From NCBI GenBank assembly GCA_003283025.1, contig QBYC01000007.1:1-37464 (forward strand): a stretch of 37,464 nucleotides of DNA, read 5' to 3'. Position numbers and translations under genes: made by a program. This DNA is from Pelagibacteraceae bacterium AG-325-C03. Its GTDB lineage: Bacteria > Pseudomonadota > Alphaproteobacteria > Pelagibacterales > Pelagibacteraceae. Positions 27,979-34,934 of this stretch are shown here, piece by piece (the stretch's first letter is position 1; every line of letters starts with the position of its first letter). The notes beneath the pieces were generated by a model. That model did no database searches. It worked only from the letters and a program-made list of their open reading frames with translations, and was not told the origin of the DNA.

Positions 27979-30363
27979 TTAATGAGTGCTTAATTCTTTC
28001 TTAATTTTTTCTTTTTTAGATAGCTGATCTACATCAACCCACTCTACTCTTTTTAAGGGTTTAGTTAATGCTACCTTTAAAACTTCATCAACATTTTTTA
28101 CTGGAATTATTTCTATTGAGTCTATAACAGTTTTTGGAACTTCGGCTAAATCTTTTTTATTTTCGATTGGAATTAAAACTTTTTTAATACCAGCTCTATG
28201 AGCGGCTAGCAGTTTTTCTTTCAAACCTCCAATAGGAAGGACCAAGCCTCTAAGGGTAATCTCACCAGTCATGGCAACGTTCTTATTAACTGGTATCTCT
28301 GTTATTGCGGAAACTATTGATGTCACCATTCCCACACCAGCTGAAGGTCCATCTTTTGGAGTTGCTCCTTCTGGTACATGAATATGGAAATCTTTCTTAT
28401 CGAAGATTGGCGGGATTATACCAAACTGTAAACTTTTTGATCTGATATATGATTTAGCTGCTTTAACCGACTCCTGCATTACATCGCCTAGTTTTCCAGT
28501 AATTTGCATTTTTCCCTTTCCTGGCATTACTGCAGACTCTATTTTTAAAATTTCACCTCCCACTTCTGTCCAAGCTAAACCTGTTACTACTCCTACTCTA
28601 TTTTCCTCTTCTATTTCTCCATAATTAAATTTTTGTACTCCCAATAAATCTTTTAAATCTTTTTCGTTAATCGGATTATTTACTTTTTCATTGTTGTCAA
28701 TTTTTTTGACTAATTTACGCGCTACCTTTGAAATTTCTCTTTCAAGATTTCTAACACCTGATTCTCTAGTGTAGTGTCTGATAATTTTTCTATTTATATT
28801 TTCGTCTATAGTCCACTCTTTCTCTTTCAATCCATTATTTTTGCTTTGATTAGGAATTAGATATTTTTGGGAGATGTTAACTTTTTCGTCTTCTGTATAA
28901 CCAGATAATCTAATTACTTCCATTCTATCAAGTAAAGGTGGCAGAATATTAAGAGTATTGGCTGTTGTTACAAACATTACATCTGACAAATCGTAATCAA
29001 CTTCTAAATAATGATCATTAAATTCTTTATTTTGTTCAGGATCTAAAGCCTCCAACAATGCTGAGGAAGGGTCTCCTCTGTAATCATTACCAACTTTATC
29101 TATCTCATCTAAAAGAAAAAGTGGATTTTTAGTTCCAGCTTTTTTCATCATTTGAATTATTTTTCCAGGTAATGATCCAATATAAGTTCTTCTATGACCT
29201 CTTATTTCAGCCTCATCCCTTATACCTCCCAATGAAATTCTTATAAATTTCCTATTAGTTGCTTTTGCGATTGACTTTCCAAGAGAAGTTTTTCCTACTC
29301 CAGGAGGACCAACCAGACATAATATAGGCCCTTTCATTTTTTGGATTCTTTTTTGTACCGCTAGAAATTCAATTATTCGCTCTTTAACTTTTTCCAAACC
29401 ATAATGGTCTTCATCAAGAATTTTTTGTGCATTATTTAAATCAGAATTAATTTTTGATTTATTTGACCAAGGAAGCTCCGTCATCCAATCTAAGTAATTT
29501 CTAACTACAGTAGCTTCTGCAGACATGGGACTCATGGATTTTAATTTTTTTAATTCGGATAAACACTTTTCTCTTGCTAGTTTAGGCATTTTAGCCTCAG
29601 AAATTGCTGAAGCGAGAGATGATAATTCATCTTTTCCTTCATCAATTTCCCCTAATTCTTTTTGGATAGCTTTTAATTGCTCATTTAAATAATACTCTCG
29701 TTGAGTTTTTTCCATTTGATTTTTAACTCTTCCACGAATTTTTTTCTCAACTGATAATACACTTGTTTCTTTTTCTATAAATTGGTGAATTTTTTCTAAT
29801 CTTTTCTTTAAATCTAATATTTCAAGTAATTCTTGCTTTTCAAATATTTGAATACTTAAATTTGAAGAAATATTATTAGCGATCTGAGAGGGATCTTTTA
29901 AGTTTTTTAAATTTATAGAACTATCATTTAAATCTTTTTTGTTAAGAACTTGTAATCTGTCAAATTTTTTTACTAATCCGAAAGCAAGAGGCTCAAGTTC
30001 TTTCGATACATTTTGATCCTCAGCAATTTCAACTTCACAATTTAAATAATTGCTACTATTTTCAATGTGTTTTAAAATTTTAATTCTTTTTTCACCTTCG
30101 ACTAGAACTTTTACAGTACCGTCAGGTAATTTTAAAAGTTGCAAAACTTTACTCAAGCAGCCGTATTGATATAGATCTTTGCTGCCAGGATCGTCAACTT
30201 CAGAATTTTTTTGAGTAACTAAAACTATAGACTTATCTGATTTCATCACTTCTTGAAGTGCCTTTATAGATTTTTCTCTTCCAACAAAAAGAGGAACTAC
30301 CATTGATGGAAATATGACTATATCCCTAAGAGGTAGAACTGGTTTTAAATAAGAAGCTTCCAT
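27979..30363 (-). CDS. lon: ATP-dependent protease La (Lon)
   Basis: Cytoplasmic AAA+ serine protease that degrades damaged and regulatory proteins. It has 794 residues, normal for LonA. It comprises an N-terminal substrate-binding domain (about 1-200), a coiled-coil linker with QREYYLNEQLKAIQKELGE, Walker A GPPGVGKT (352-359), Walker B LFLLDEID (415-422) and the Ser-Lys dyad S674 (PKDGPSAG) and K716 (GGLKEKLL). It is third after clpP and clpX, 50 nt downstream of clpX. No Shine-Dalgarno precedes the ATG. Confidence 0.97.
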   Translation of the reverse strand: MEASYLKPVLPLRDIVIFPSMVVPLFVGREKSIKALQEVMKSDKSIVLVTQKNSEVDDPGSKDLYQYGCLSKVLQLLKLPDGTVKVLVEGEKRIKILKHIENSSNYLNCEVEIAEDQNVSKELEPLAFGLVKKFDRLQVLNKKDLNDSSINLKNLKDPSQIANNISSNLSIQIFEKQELLEILDLKKRLEKIHQFIEKETSVLSVEKKIRGRVKNQMEKTQREYYLNEQLKAIQKELGEIDEGKDELSSLASAISEAKMPKLAREKCLSELKKLKSMSPMSAEATVVRNYLDWMTELPWSNKSKINSDLNNAQKILDEDHYGLEKVKERIIEFLAVQKRIQKMKGPILCLVGPPGVGKTSLGKSIAKATNRKFIRISLGGIRDEAEIRGHRRTYIGSLPGKIIQMMKKAGTKNPLFLLDEIDKVGNDYRGDPSSALLEALDPEQNKEFNDHYLEVDYDLSDVMFVTTANTLNILPPLLDRMEVIRLSGYTEDEKVNISQKYLIPNQSKNNGLKEKEWTIDENINRKIIRHYTRESGVRNLEREISKVARKLVKKIDNNEKVNNPINEKDLKDLLGVQKFNYGEIEEENRVGVVTGLAWTEVGGEILKIESAVMPGKGKMQITGKLGDVMQESVKAAKSYIRSKSLQFGIIPPIFDKKDFHIHVPEGATPKDGPSAGVGMVTSIVSAITEIPVNKNVAMTGEITLRGLVLPIGGLKEKLLAAHRAGIKKVLIPIENKKDLAEVPKTVIDSIEIIPVKNVDEVLKVALTKPLKRVEWVDVDQLSKKEKIKKELSTH

Positions 30364-30413: not shown

Positions 30414-31667
30414 TTAAGCCACTGATGTTGTTGATTTTTTCCCATATGTGACAATGGGTTCTGAAATTCCTTTAACTGAAGAGTTATCTACAGTTACTTT
30501 AATTACATTTTCCATATCTGGAAGCTCAAACATTGTTTTAAGTAAAATATTTTCCAAAATTGATCTTAGACCTCTCGCTCCAGTTTTTTTAGATATAGCT
30601 TTTCTTGCAATCTCTGAAATTGCCTCATCTTTAAATTCTAATTCTACATCTTCAAATTCAAATAACCTTTGGTACTGTTTTATTAAAGAGTTTTTTGGTT
30701 CTTTTAAAATTTTTACTAAAGATTTTTCGTCTAAATCATCTAAAGTTGCAATAATTGGCATTCTTCCAATAAATTCAGGTATTAGGCCGTATTTTATCAA
30801 ATCCTCTGGTTCTAGCATTTTCATAATTTCAGAAAGAGGTTGTTCTTTGAAGTTTTTTACTTTTGCTCCAAAGCCGATTGAACTTCCTTTGCCTCTGCTA
30901 TCAATTAATTTATCTAATCCTGCAAATGCGCCTCCACAAATAAATAAAATATTTGTTGTATCTACTTGTAAAAATTCTTGCTGAGGATGTTTTCTACCGC
31001 CTTGAGGTGGAACACTTGCAACAGTGCCCTCCATTATTTTTAACAACGCTTGCTGAACTCCTTCACCTGAAACATCTCTTGTAATAGATGGATTTTCAGA
31101 TTTTCTACTAATCTTATCTACCTCATCTATGTAAACAATTCCTCTTTGAGCTTTTTCAACATTATAATCTGCTGATTGTAGTAATTTTAGTATAATATTT
31201 TCAACATCTTCTCCTACATAACCTGCTTCTGTTAACGTTGTTGCGTCGGCCATTGTAAAAGGAACATCTAAAATTCTTGCTAAAGTTTGTGCTAATAAAG
31301 TTTTACCGCACCCTGTTGGTCCGACTAAAAGTATATTTGATTTTGACAATTCAATATCTTTATTGTTTCTTGTTTCATGATTTAATCTTTTATAATGATT
31401 ATGCACAGCAACAGAAAGAATTTCTTTTGCAAATTTCTGACCAATTACATAATCGTCTAAAACATTGCAAATTTCTTTTGGAGAAGGTACTCCCTCCTGA
31501 TGTTTTACAAGAGAACTTTTATTTTCCTCTTTAATGATATCCATACACAATTCGACACACTCATCACAAATAAACACTGTGGGTCCAGCAATAAGTTTTC
31601 TAACTTCATGTTGGCTTTTTCCGCAAAAGGAACAATAGAGTATATTTTTATTATTTTTTTCAGACAT
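30414..31667 (-). CDS. clpX: ATP-dependent Clp protease ATP-binding subunit ClpX
   Basis: AAA+ unfoldase that feeds substrates to ClpP. It has 417 residues with an N-terminal zinc-binding domain (C12, C15, C34, C37), Walker A GPTGCGKT (116-123), pore loop GYVG (149-152), Walker [10 protein letters not shown] (177-185) and the loop GGRKHPQQE. Length and motifs are canonical. It lies 79 nt downstream of clpP, with its own candidate promoter in the gap. Confidence 0.97.
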
Positions 31668-31746: not shown

Positions 31747-32358
31747 TTATTTTCGTTTCTCCACAACAGAGTCTATTAAGCCAAATTTTTTAGCCTCATC
31801 AGCGGTCATAAAATTATCTCGCTCTAGTGCATCAGATATTTCGTTTAACGACTTACCAGTATGTTTTGAGTAAATTACATTTAATCTTTCTTTTAACGAT
31901 AAAATTTCCTTAGCATGAATTTGAATATCAGTAGCTTGACCTTGAAATCCTGCTGAAGGTTGGTGAACCATAATTCTTGAATTGGGAAGAGAAAATCTTT
32001 TTCCATTTTCTCCGGCAGCTAAAAGAAAAGAACCCATTGACGAAGCTTGACCAATGCAGAGAGTCGAAACTGGTGAATTAATATATTGCATAGTATCATA
32101 AATACCTAAACCTGCAGTGACTAAACCGCCAGGGCTATTGATATAAAAATTTATTTCTTTATTAGGATTTTCTGACTCTAAAAAAAGTAATTGTGCGGTT
32201 ACAAGAGAAGCCACAGCATCGTTAACAGGTCCAACCAAAAATACTATTCTCTCCTTTAATAACCTTGAATAAATATCATAAGCTCTTTCACCTTTGCTTG
32301 TTTGTTCAACAACCATCGGGATTAGGCTATTCATCTTTTCTTCCAATTCACGACTCAT
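31747..32358 (-). CDS. clpP: ATP-dependent Clp protease proteolytic subunit ClpP
   Basis: Barrel-forming serine peptidase working with ClpX. From the ATG at 32358 it has 203 residues. The catalytic triad is S107 (QASSMGS), H132 (MVHQPSAG) and D181 (ERDNFM). The frame is open to a TTG at 32373 (five more residues), and an internal ATG at 32334 has GGAAG upstream. I chose 32358 because homologues have a short N-terminal stretch before NLVPMVVEQ. It follows tig closely and is probably co-transcribed with it. Confidence 0.95.
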
Positions 32359-32380: not shown

Positions 32381-33751
32381 TTACTTTTTACTAATTTTTT
32401 TTGATTTAGACTTATCTTTTGCAGAAGACGTACTTTTAGATTTCTCAGTTTCTACATTTTGGTTATTAAATTCAGTAATCAATTTTTCAGCTTCTTTAAT
32501 ATTTATCTCTTTAGATAAAATTTTAATTTTTGATTTAATAAGATCTAAAATTTTTTCCTCATACAAAGATCCTTTTAAACTTTGAGATGCACTTGGGTTT
32601 TTTTGATAATGCTCAAGTACCATTTTTTCTTGACCGGGCATACCTTTTATTTGCTTTTGTATTTCATTTCTAACTTCATCGTCTGATACTTTTAGATTAT
32701 TTTTTTCCCCAAATTCATTCAACAACAAGCCAAGTTTTATTCTAGATTTTGCTAATTTTTCATTATTAAACTTATGTTTTTCTTTTTCTTCAAGTTTAAG
32801 ATTTTGAGTCATAATTGAAATTTCTTGGTCAATCAAGTTTTGAGGTAAATCTACCTGATGGCTTTTTTCAATTTGATCTAAAATTTCTTTTTTAGTAATA
32901 GAATTCAATGCCTGGGAGTATTTACCTGACATTTGTTTTTCAATCAAAGATTTTAAATCTTTAATATCTTTCGCGCCCATCAATTTAGCAAAATCATCAT
33001 CAATTTTACTTACTTTAGGTTTTTTTACATTTAAAATTTTACATTGAAATTTAGTTTTTTTGTTTGATAGTTCTTTTTTAGGATGATTGGCTGGAAGCGT
33101 AGCATCTAATATTTTTGTATCATTTTTTTTCACACCAATTAGTTGATCATCAAATCCTTTTAAAAAAAGATCCTTTCCTAACTCAAGCTGGACACCTTTT
33201 CCTTCGCTTCCATCAAATTCATTTCCATCAACTCTAGCTGAATAATCAAAGGTAATTTGATCTCCATTAACTGCTTTTTCATTTTCGTTTTTGTCTTCAA
33301 ATTGTTTATTTTGATTAGCAATTTCTTTTAACTTTTCTTCAATAATTTTATCTTCAATTTTTAAATTAAAACTTGTAGCTTTAAATTTATCAAAACTTTT
33401 TAAACTTATTTTTGGTAAACAATCTACCTGAAGCTCATAATTTAAATCTTTTCCTTCGCTAAATTGTTTAAGATCAATTTTTGGTTGTCCTGCAACTTTT
33501 AATTTTTTTTCATCTAAAACTTTACTAGTTGTTTCTCTCAAAATCTTATCTACTACCTCCCCATAGATAGATTTACCGAATTGGCTTTTAATTATTTCAG
33601 GAGGTACTTTTCCTGGTCTAAAACCTTTTAAAGATATTTCTTTCTGAAGTTCTTTCAATCTCTCGTCCATTTTTATTTGTATTTTTTTTTTGTCAACTAT
33701 TACAGATAAAATTGTTCTAAGCCCTTTTTTTGATTTTACTTCTACTTTCAT
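32381..33751 (-). CDS. tig: Trigger factor
   Basis: Ribosome-associated chaperone and peptidyl-prolyl isomerase that receives nascent chains. It has 456 residues with an N-terminal ribosome-binding domain holding GFRPGK (43-48), an FKBP-like domain (about 155-245) with FDYSARVDGNEFDGSEGKG, and a helical C-terminal chaperone domain ending in a Lys/Ser-rich tail. The ATG is only 7 nt from the 3' end of the upstream tRNA-Leu, so there is no room for a Shine-Dalgarno in a processed mRNA. The first residues MKVEVKSKKGLR match the family start, so this is not a mis-called start. Confidence 0.96.
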   Translation of the reverse strand: MKVEVKSKKGLRTILSVIVDKKKIQIKMDERLKELQKEISLKGFRPGKVPPEIIKSQFGKSIYGEVVDKILRETTSKVLDEKKLKVAGQPKIDLKQFSEGKDLNYELQVDCLPKISLKSFDKFKATSFNLKIEDKIIEEKLKEIANQNKQFEDKNENEKAVNGDQITFDYSARVDGNEFDGSEGKGVQLELGKDLFLKGFDDQLIGVKKNDTKILDATLPANHPKKELSNKKTKFQCKILNVKKPKVSKIDDDFAKLMGAKDIKDLKSLIEKQMSGKYSQALNSITKKEILDQIEKSHQVDLPQNLIDQEISIMTQNLKLEEKEKHKFNNEKLAKSRIKLGLLLNEFGEKNNLKVSDDEVRNEIQKQIKGMPGQEKMVLEHYQKNPSASQSLKGSLYEEKILDLIKSKIKILSKEINIKEAEKLITEFNNQNVETEKSKSTSSAKDKSKSKKISKK

Positions 33752-33758
33752 AATGTTT

Positions 33759-33843
33759 TGGTGGGCAAGAAGAGACTCGAACTCTTAAGCCTTGCGGCAC
33801 TGGTTTCTAAGACCAGCGCGTATACCAATTCCGCCACTTGCCC
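33759..33843 (-). tRNA. tRNA-Leu (UAG)
   Basis: A complete 85-nt class II tRNA with encoded CCA. The acceptor GGGCAAG pairs with CTTGCCC. The anticodon loop CTTAGAA gives TAG. A long variable arm (TGCCGCAAGGCTT) and T-loop GTTCGAGTC are present. It is placed 7 nt upstream of tig and 29 nt after the preceding glycosyltransferase gene. Confidence 0.96.
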
Positions 33844-33859
33844 CTAACTTAATCGTTGC

Positions 33860-33887
33860 TTTATATATCAAATTAATTTTTTGTAAA
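33860..33887 (-). promoter_or_regulatory. Candidate promoter of the tRNA-Leu/tig unit
   Basis: On the minus strand, TTTACA (33882-33887) and TATAAA (33860-33865), each 5 of 6 to consensus, are spaced by 16 nt. They would start transcription about 10 nt before tRNA-Leu. The -35 box lies in the last codons of the upstream WecA-like gene. It is the best promoter match I found in the window. Confidence 0.5.
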
Positions 33888-34934
33888 ATGATAAAGTCTA
33901 GAATAAATTATTAGATAAACTAACATCAAGATAAAAAACCAATACCTACTAAGCTGGGGATTGTCTAAGAAATACAACCCAGGAATTATCAAAATTAAAT
34001 ACACAATATTTATGATAATTGCATTTAAATAGTTTCCTTTATCTTTTCCGTAAATATTAGAAATTCTATTAAAACTAAGCATATGTAAATGTTTGTTATC
34101 AGGATAAATTGGAGATTTTTTTTGAAAGATTTTTCTGAAAAATGAGAAGAATACCTCAAAAAAAAGATAAAATAGTAGTGTGCAAAAGAAAAATGAAGAA
34201 ATTTCATAATTTGTATTATTTGTAATGATTGTATTTAAGCCAGTCAAAGCTCCCAAGGTATAAGCTCCGCTGTCCCCTAGAAAGATTTTAGCATTTGGAA
34301 AATTAAATAGTAAAAATGACAATAAAATTATAATTTGAGAAATCAGCAAAATTGAAAATTCTAAATTCTCATTATTCATGTTTATATAAGTCAATATTAT
34401 ATTAATGATAATTAAATTTATTGTTAATAAACCATTAAATCCATCTATCAAATTTGCTCCATTAATTACAAATAAAAAACATAATAAAACAAAAATTGAA
34501 GAGAACATGTGGCCAGACATTAAAGGAATTAAAAACGGGATATCAATATTTAAAACTTTAATTGGTAAAATATATATAAACACAAAAAGAAGAATCAACA
34601 TGATAATCAATCTGCTGAATGGTTTAATATTAATCTTTAAATCATCTAAAAAACCCACCAAAAAAACTGAGTAGCTTATAAAAATATAATTGTATAAAAT
34701 TTTAGAATATAACAAGTAATAAATTAAAAAAAAAATAGTTAAAGAAAGTATTACAGCAATACCTCCGCTTCGTGTTACTGGAGAGTTATGAAAAGCTTGG
34801 GGTTTAGAAAAATCTTCATCTAGTAAAGCACCTCTTTTAATTTTTTCTGAAAACTTACTAACGATTAAAAAAATAAAAAAACTTATTAAAGCAAAAATTG
34901 ATAAAAAACTAGCTTCGATTGACTCTGTTCCCAT
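33873..34934 (-). CDS. WecA/MraY-superfamily sugar-1-phosphate transferase
   Basis: Integral membrane enzyme (family GT4/PNPT) that transfers a sugar-1-phosphate to undecaprenyl phosphate, the first step of a lipid-linked glycan. The 353 residues have about ten membrane helices. Diagnostic motifs are the catalytic DD at 97-98 (GFLDDLK), NLIDGFNGL (161-169), LGDSG (219-223) and a cytoplasmic HLH at 282-284 followed by ML. The last resembles the WecA-type HIHH loop more than MraY. It is not in a peptidoglycan (mra) cluster, so an O-antigen or other surface-glycan role is more likely than lipid I synthesis. It overlaps the EamA gene stop by one base. The sugar is unknown. Confidence 0.87.
   Translation of the reverse strand: MGTESIEASFLSIFALISFFIFLIVSKFSEKIKRGALLDEDFSKPQAFHNSPVTRSGGIAVILSLTIFFLIYYLLYSKILYNYIFISYSVFLVGFLDDLKINIKPFSRLIIMLILLFVFIYILPIKVLNIDIPFLIPLMSGHMFSSIFVLLCFLFVINGANLIDGFNGLLTINLIIINIILTYINMNNENLEFSILLISQIIILLSFLLFNFPNAKIFLGDSGAYTLGALTGLNTIITNNTNYEISSFFFCTLLFYLFFEVFFSFFRKIFQKKSPIYPDNKHLHMLSFNRISNIYGKDKGNYLNAIIINIVYLILIIPGLYFLDNPQLSRYWFFILMLVYLIIYSRLYHFTKN

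Follow-up and report, generated by a model that had tools for sequence, protein, structure and literature searches.

For the layout described here, the closest known parallel is the tRNA punctuation of animal mitochondrial transcripts, reportedly described by Ojala et al. in 1981. As in mitochondria, a tRNA recurrently abuts the next start codon on the same strand at SAR11 loci, its excision would yield a leaderless or near-leaderless message, and there is no Shine–Dalgarno (SD) sequence. Unlike in mitochondria, only some SAR11 tRNAs are so placed (from 5 of 21 to 11 of 30 in the genomes read), the spacers are 1–16 nt long and never zero, and the ribosomes are bacterial. The SAR11 layout would work like mitochondrial punctuation, the likeness known here being one of gene layout.

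In the E. coli tRNA–mRNA operons tRNA-tufB and secG-leuU, the message carries an ordinary leader that includes an SD sequence. The SAR11 locus resembles these operons in that a tRNA and a protein gene are predicted to share one transcript, but no such leader with an SD sequence is found at its trigger factor gene, tig. Also unlike tig, SAR11 tuf lies 37–40 nt behind tRNA-Gly and has an SD-like string. A further likeness would be tRNA processing by RNase E, for which one study describes direct-entry cutting of E. coli tRNA precursors beside single-stranded segments (PMC3985628). Actinobacterial leaderless mRNAs have leaders of ≤10 nt, too short for SD pairing (PMC3848588, PMC4681348); their 5′ end is the transcription start, whereas at tig the end would be made by tRNA processing.

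The locus is already known as a phage attachment site: tRNA-Leu(TAG) is where HTVC011P, HTVC025P and a phage of Fonsibacter integrate, with trigger factor flanking the prophage (PMC6811365). The available part of that source treats the locus as an att site and does not discuss an effect on tig transcription. Five lysogen-like cases at the same tRNA-Leu(TAG)/trigger factor locus were found here. A literature search on SAR11 and bacterial tRNA punctuation, leaderless messages and tRNA–tig co-transcription, with most subscription papers outside its coverage, returned no account of the junction.

Layout of the tRNA-Leu–tig locus

The window (the whole stretch of 37,464 nucleotides that was analysed) comes from a SAR11 assembly (Pelagibacteraceae) of 972,164 bases in 50 contigs. 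On the minus strand, a 353-aa ORF is followed by a 29-nt gap, tRNA-Leu(UAG), the spacer AAACATT, tig and three ORFs that are presumably ClpP-, ClpX- and Lon-like:

33873..34934, minus strand: upstream ORF of 353 aa (ORF list); its stop lies 29 nt 5′ of the tRNA
33882..33887, minus strand: −35-like TTTACA, found by eye, outside the consensus scan list
33860..33865, minus strand: −10-like TATAAA within TTGATATATAAA, found by eye, 16 nt from TTTACA
33759..33843, minus strand: tRNA-Leu(UAG) by its anticodon tag, CCA encoded (ARAGORN; RF00005)
33752..33758, minus strand: spacer AAACATT, 7 nt, from CCA to the tig ATG (sequence reading)
32381..33751, minus strand: tig, trigger factor, 456 aa (ORF list and relatives)
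31747..32358, minus strand: presumably ClpP-like ORF directly 3′ of tig; listed start TTG 32373, likely ATG 32358
30414..31667, minus strand: presumably ClpX-like ORF downstream of tig (ORF list)
27979..30363, minus strand: presumably Lon-like ORF downstream of tig (ORF list)

The junction reads CTTGCCC-A-CCA-AAACATT-ATG (tRNA end, spacer, tig start). A preliminary description of this DNA had placed the end of the CCA at 33759 and the ATG at 33751; both positions and the 7-nt spacing proved exact by ARAGORN, the ORF list and the sequence. The two genes lie on the same strand with no terminator-like site between them, and gene ends in the window are often short-spaced or overlapping.

Conservation of gene order and spacing

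We collected 205 tig starts, of which 187 were distinct after duplicates had been merged; L047, L053 and L054 were dropped because the tig N-terminus was missing, and the genus labels of L001–L024 are assumed. The sample from the window's family (127 distinct rows) is a fetched subset of the 263 of 298 family genomes with a tig match. Of the 234 genomes of the class in which tig gave a match, 46 lying outside the SAR11 order were read as the sample of other Alphaproteobacteria (the best-scoring 26 and 20 picked).

Among these other Alphaproteobacteria, tRNA-Leu(UAG) was found upstream of tig in 38 of the 46 distinct rows, at 16–1058 nt (median 76); in the remaining eight, the upstream stretch that was read contained no tRNA. 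In the window's family, the spacer measured 4–16 nt in 117 of 127 distinct rows (118 rows had a called tRNA-Leu(UAG) at ≤16 nt, one of which, L183, is a false call in a lysogen). A second family of the SAR11 order had spacers of 7–21 nt in 13 of 14 distinct rows, the last row having 64 nt and a shifted frame. The tRNA–tig order is therefore old, and its spacing has collapsed in SAR11.

Spacer length peaked at 7 nt in the window's genus and at 10 nt in another large genus, and spacers of ≤16 nt were 93 % A+T. Three family rows had longer spacers of 21, 34 and 54 nt, with AAGG in the 21- and 54-nt rows. The preliminary description had counted a variable spacer in close relatives against its own reading, and the length does vary within the genus (5–12 nt, one 34-nt row and the lysogens set aside), so that exact spacing is not conserved. 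What is kept is a spacer that is very short, A/T-rich and rarely contains an SD sequence.

Start codon and Shine–Dalgarno sequences

The tig frame is open for only 11 codons above its ATG, with no ATG, GTG or TTG among them, and alignments with relatives as distant as 44 % identity begin at residue 1, which makes the start at 33751 firm. ATG is the tig start in all 127 distinct family rows.

Reading of the sequence bore out the earlier statement that AAACATT holds no SD sequence. Only 7 of 31 mechanically called ORFs in the window had an SD sequence of at least 4 nt (longest-ORF starts, some possibly wrong), so that its absence is usual in the window and no mark of tig. Across the SAR11 order (L169, with a shifted frame, excluded), SD-like 4-mers occurred in 2 of 112 tig spacers of ≤10 nt, in 5 of 13 of 11–20 nt and in 2 of 9 above 20 nt, and were thus commoner in roomier spacers; the five SD-bearing rows with 11–13 nt spacers belong to two other genera and carry AAGGA or GAGGA. 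The sparse use of SD sequences in the window offers a possible reason why the tRNA–tig gap was able to become so small. The minimum free energy of the tRNA and start region was not below that of shuffled sequences (z −0.94).

Prophages at the junction

Five family rows (L008/L031, L066, L171, L198 and L183) look like lysogens: a tRNA-Leu 164–194 nt upstream is followed by short repeats, the displaced 3′ half of the host tRNA and tig. In the two genomes read further upstream, G034 and G192, integrase-like and terminase-like ORFs were found; in G034, the one genome on which Pfam was run, both were confirmed. The nearest phage matches of the G034 integrase, 30–38 % identical, are the integrases of one uncultured phage and of the Pelagibacter phages Gjalp, Eyrgjafa, HTVC025P, HTVC011P and HTVC041P. 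Two further rows, L111 (G142) and L101 (G066), have insertions of 115 and 965 nt between a tRNA-Leu and tig, with further tRNA-like fragments. The window itself has no prophage at the tRNA-Leu(UAG) site.

A search of a phage collection with the 61-nt tRNA 3′ half gave no match. One viral contig matched an exact 39-nt pattern; it carries an intact tRNA-Leu and the tig start, looks like host DNA and was rejected. In L031, L066, L171, L198 and L183 the second tRNA-Leu points in the same direction, and tig may stay behind a tRNA promoter. The prophage-side tRNA-Leu of L031 begins GGGGCGATGGCGG, as does the host tRNA-Leu(UAG) of another SAR11 genus (L102–L113 and L190–L209; 24 rows); the tRNA-Leu(UAG) of its own genus begins GGGCAAG, and an exchange of the tRNA between phage and host is possible. 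Lysogens with a prophage between the host tRNA and tig are a natural experiment on the junction.

Promoter evidence

The preliminary description had placed the best promoter of the area before the tRNA. A consensus scan of the window did not support this: it found 18 sites, against 19.4 expected in shuffled sequence, and none immediately before the tRNA. The pair TTTACA-16 nt-TATAAA at 33887–33860 was seen by eye and is excluded by the rules of the scan. The comparison gave the claim some support, since 99 of 118 family rows carry T[AG]NTATA no more than 60 nt ahead of the called tRNA and the other 19 do not, a raw count over related rows without a background model; in 90 of these 99 it lies 24–32 nt before the tRNA 5′ end. 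This promoter-like element is the only one that we found conserved, and the tRNA–tig transcript would probably start a few nucleotides past TATAAA. The comparison also favours the earlier proposal that tig is co-transcribed with tRNA-Leu: the conserved element stands only before the tRNA, and the gene order recurs in 38 of 46 rows outside the SAR11 order.

Alternatively, tig could be transcribed from within the tRNA gene or the upstream ORF, with a tRNA fragment as its leader and no need for processing. Promoter-like strings are as frequent as in shuffled sequence, 66 of 118 rows contain the loose pattern TANNNT within the final 60 nt of tRNA and spacer, and tig is preceded by a displaced tRNA half in the lysogen-like rows, all of which would suit such a start. 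However, TATAAT, TATAAA and TATATA occur in that same interval in only 1, 0 and 0 of the 118 rows, and the element that clusters in position precedes the tRNA. We regard an internal promoter as unlikely.

Candidate processing enzymes and the putative cut site

Each of the 81 tRNAs examined in three SAR11 genomes has an encoded CCA. An RNase E/G family protein scored over the curated cut-off in all 16 genomes searched, 13 of them SAR11. A study on human mitochondria assigns the tRNA 3′ cut there to ELAC2 (PMC11996679). In contrast, the RNase Z model TIGR02651 exceeded its cut-off in none of the 13 SAR11 genomes, but also in none of the three control alphaproteobacteria. Weaker matches occurred in 14 of 16 genomes, including all three non-SAR11 genomes; of the 14 controls named for the model, 9 score above the cut-off. 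The weak match in G063 is presumably a PhnP-type hydrolase. The model thus lends RNase Z no support as the SAR11 cutter and, with the same result in the control alphaproteobacteria, says little against it.

The cleavage consensus of RNase E is RN|WUU, and the spacer AAACATT contains a fitting ACAUU. Of 79 distinct tig spacers, 46 contained RNWUU, a number that none of 1000 shuffles reached (mean 32.7, maximum 44); the spacers share ancestry, and the enrichment may merely reflect a preference for ATT before ATG. At tRNA-Leu(CAA) junctions 9 of 20 spacers had the motif (reached by 32 of 1000 shuffles), and at tRNA-Leu(UAA) junctions 3 of 10 (reached by 477 of 1000). We dropped the motif as a general spacer signal, as it is enriched at tig and not at Leu(UAA). 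The last three letters before the ATG are ATT in 40 of 79 distinct tig spacers; a final T is absent from all 10 distinct Leu(UAA) spacers.

RNase E is the best candidate for a cut after the CCA. It stays a candidate because the motif is weaker or absent at other junctions and because a 1-nt spacer leaves almost no room.

The same layout at other SAR11 tRNAs

We counted distinct tRNAs that have an ATG ORF (≥60 aa) starting ≤16 nt after the CCA. By this rule 5 of 21 tRNAs in G000, 7 of 30 in G063 and 11 of 30 in G068, all SAR11 genomes, have such an ORF. In the one control, the 3.7-Mb alphaproteobacterium G345, the count was 0 of 30 (30 of 41 tRNA matches fetched); the restriction to ATG starts left out an apparently spurious TTG ORF of 97 aa at 2 nt.

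Most of the junction ORFs that were scanned belong to known families. In G063, six of seven had a Pfam match over cut-off (NDUS4, PolyA_pol, NAD kinase, AMP-binding, trigger factor and GIY-YIG), the ORF after tRNA-Thr having no match; the tig orthologue of this genome has Trigger_N, FKBP_C and Trigger_C. In G068, seven of the eight scanned (of 11) were over cut-off, among them tRNA-synt_His, Pterin_4a, EamA and DUF3047, and the ORF after tRNA-Lys was sub-threshold. Apart from tig, the scan of G000 covered a single ORF, the one behind tRNA-Arg(ACG), whose PMT_2 match barely exceeded the cut-off.

Two further junctions were traced in 30 genomes. At 23 of 27 loci tRNA-Leu(CAA) lies 1–8 nt before an AMP-binding gene; of the others, two carry a tRNA 3′ part immediately ahead of the ATG and two lack a tRNA. 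The former two (L326 and L333) have no intact tRNA within 600 nt and are possibly a second integration site. In L346 and L348 a single nucleotide separates tRNA and gene (CCA-T-ATG). Of the 28 NAD kinase loci at which the N-terminus is present, 14 have tRNA-Leu(UAA) 3–8 nt before the gene, 13 show no tRNA over a distance of 600 nt and one has a misplaced start (start checks: L364, at 137 nt, misplaced; L366 and L368 off the projected start by 2 and 1 codons; L369 starting with GTG). Judged by these comparisons, the tRNA–tig arrangement is a result of family-wide compaction and not a device specific to tig.

Two of the neighbours concern tRNAs themselves. tRNA-Gln(UUG) stands 3 nt (L252, G063) and 6 nt (L311, G068) before a gene resembling a poly(A) polymerase/CCA enzyme, and a gene for tRNA 3′-end chemistry may thus itself depend on tRNA 3′ processing. 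In L294 (G068), tRNA-His stands 5 nt before a gene resembling histidyl-tRNA synthetase.

Discussion

We consider it probable that tig is expressed from a transcript shared with tRNA-Leu, that the tRNA is excised from it, and that the resulting near-leaderless message is a product of genome streamlining. tig would come second in a unit that is headed by tRNA-Leu(UAG) and transcribed from a promoter within or close to the 29-nt gap. RNase P would make the 5′ end of the tRNA; an endonuclease, most likely RNase E, would cleave the A/U-rich stretch just 3′ of the CCA, and exonucleases would trim the tRNA. The product would be a tig mRNA with a 5′ monophosphate and a leader of about 0–7 nt, translated without SD pairing, as apparently are most genes of the window. 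An SD-free, near-leaderless message would be the natural consequence of co-transcription with a tRNA that ends 7 nt before the ATG. By the same account, an old alphaproteobacterial gene order had its spacer (median 76 nt elsewhere) squeezed by streamlining, as after many other SAR11 tRNAs. Counting against it, the lysogens and the rows with 21-, 34- and 54-nt spacers indicate that tig is viable without an adjoining tRNA.

Under this account, tRNA 3′ processing is expected to be constitutive and not a control on tig. A regulatory role would mean that trigger factor output is set by how fast tRNA-Leu matures at its 3′ end, or by competition between tRNA and mRNA production, so that the chaperone is coupled to translation capacity. 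Trigger factor acts at the ribosome, the junction is retained in 117 of 127 family rows, and tRNA-linked enzymes stand at similar junctions (the poly(A)/CCA-type gene after tRNA-Gln in G063 and G068, the HisRS-like gene after tRNA-His in G068), as such coupling might lead one to expect. Yet NDUS4, AMP-binding, EamA and GIY-YIG partners have no evident tRNA link, spacer length drifts, and the tRNA of the NAD kinase junction has been lost at 13 of 28 loci; rapid constitutive processing would, moreover, give an identical picture. Regulation of this kind seems improbable to us.

Excision could also act in the opposite sense, the cut destroying or disabling the message and trigger factor being made only from uncut read-through RNA or by internal re-initiation. 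The spacers of 1–4 nt at some Leu(CAA) and Leu(UAA) junctions speak for this, because a cut that spares the ATG would have to be exact there. However, from the structure of tRNA, a folded tRNA 1–7 nt before the ATG should leave little room for the 30S subunit and block its binding on uncut RNA, and relatives aligned from residue 1 do not favour a downstream start. This either-or outcome is in our view quite improbable. Excision followed by near-leaderless initiation remains the simplest account, since a tRNA folded 1–10 nt before the ATG leaves no normal ribosome site. That the adjacency has no consequence, with tig transcribed mainly from further upstream or elsewhere, would suit the frequent short or overlapping gene ends of the window but is very improbable, because any upstream-derived transcript should still carry the tRNA right before tig and with it the problem of ribosome access.

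More tentatively, and with rather more doubt than belief, the excision account might be extended to SAR11 genomes as a whole. A quarter to a third of tRNAs would then make mRNA 5′ ends, for trigger factor, SecE, NAD kinase, a complex I subunit, a poly(A)/CCA polymerase and others, with leaders down to one nucleotide. tRNA maturation capacity would be wired into expression, and pelagiphages at tRNA-Leu(UAG) would replace the tRNA–tig junction with their own.

SAR11 bacteria are among the most abundant cells on Earth, and the kinship of this alphaproteobacterial lineage to mitochondria has long been debated. If the proposed excision is correct, a free-living bacterium would have independently reached the mitochondrial way of defining mRNA 5′ ends. 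SD-free initiation on processed, near-leaderless messages would be testable in cultured SAR11, and tRNA maturation would be tied to a set of housekeeping genes.
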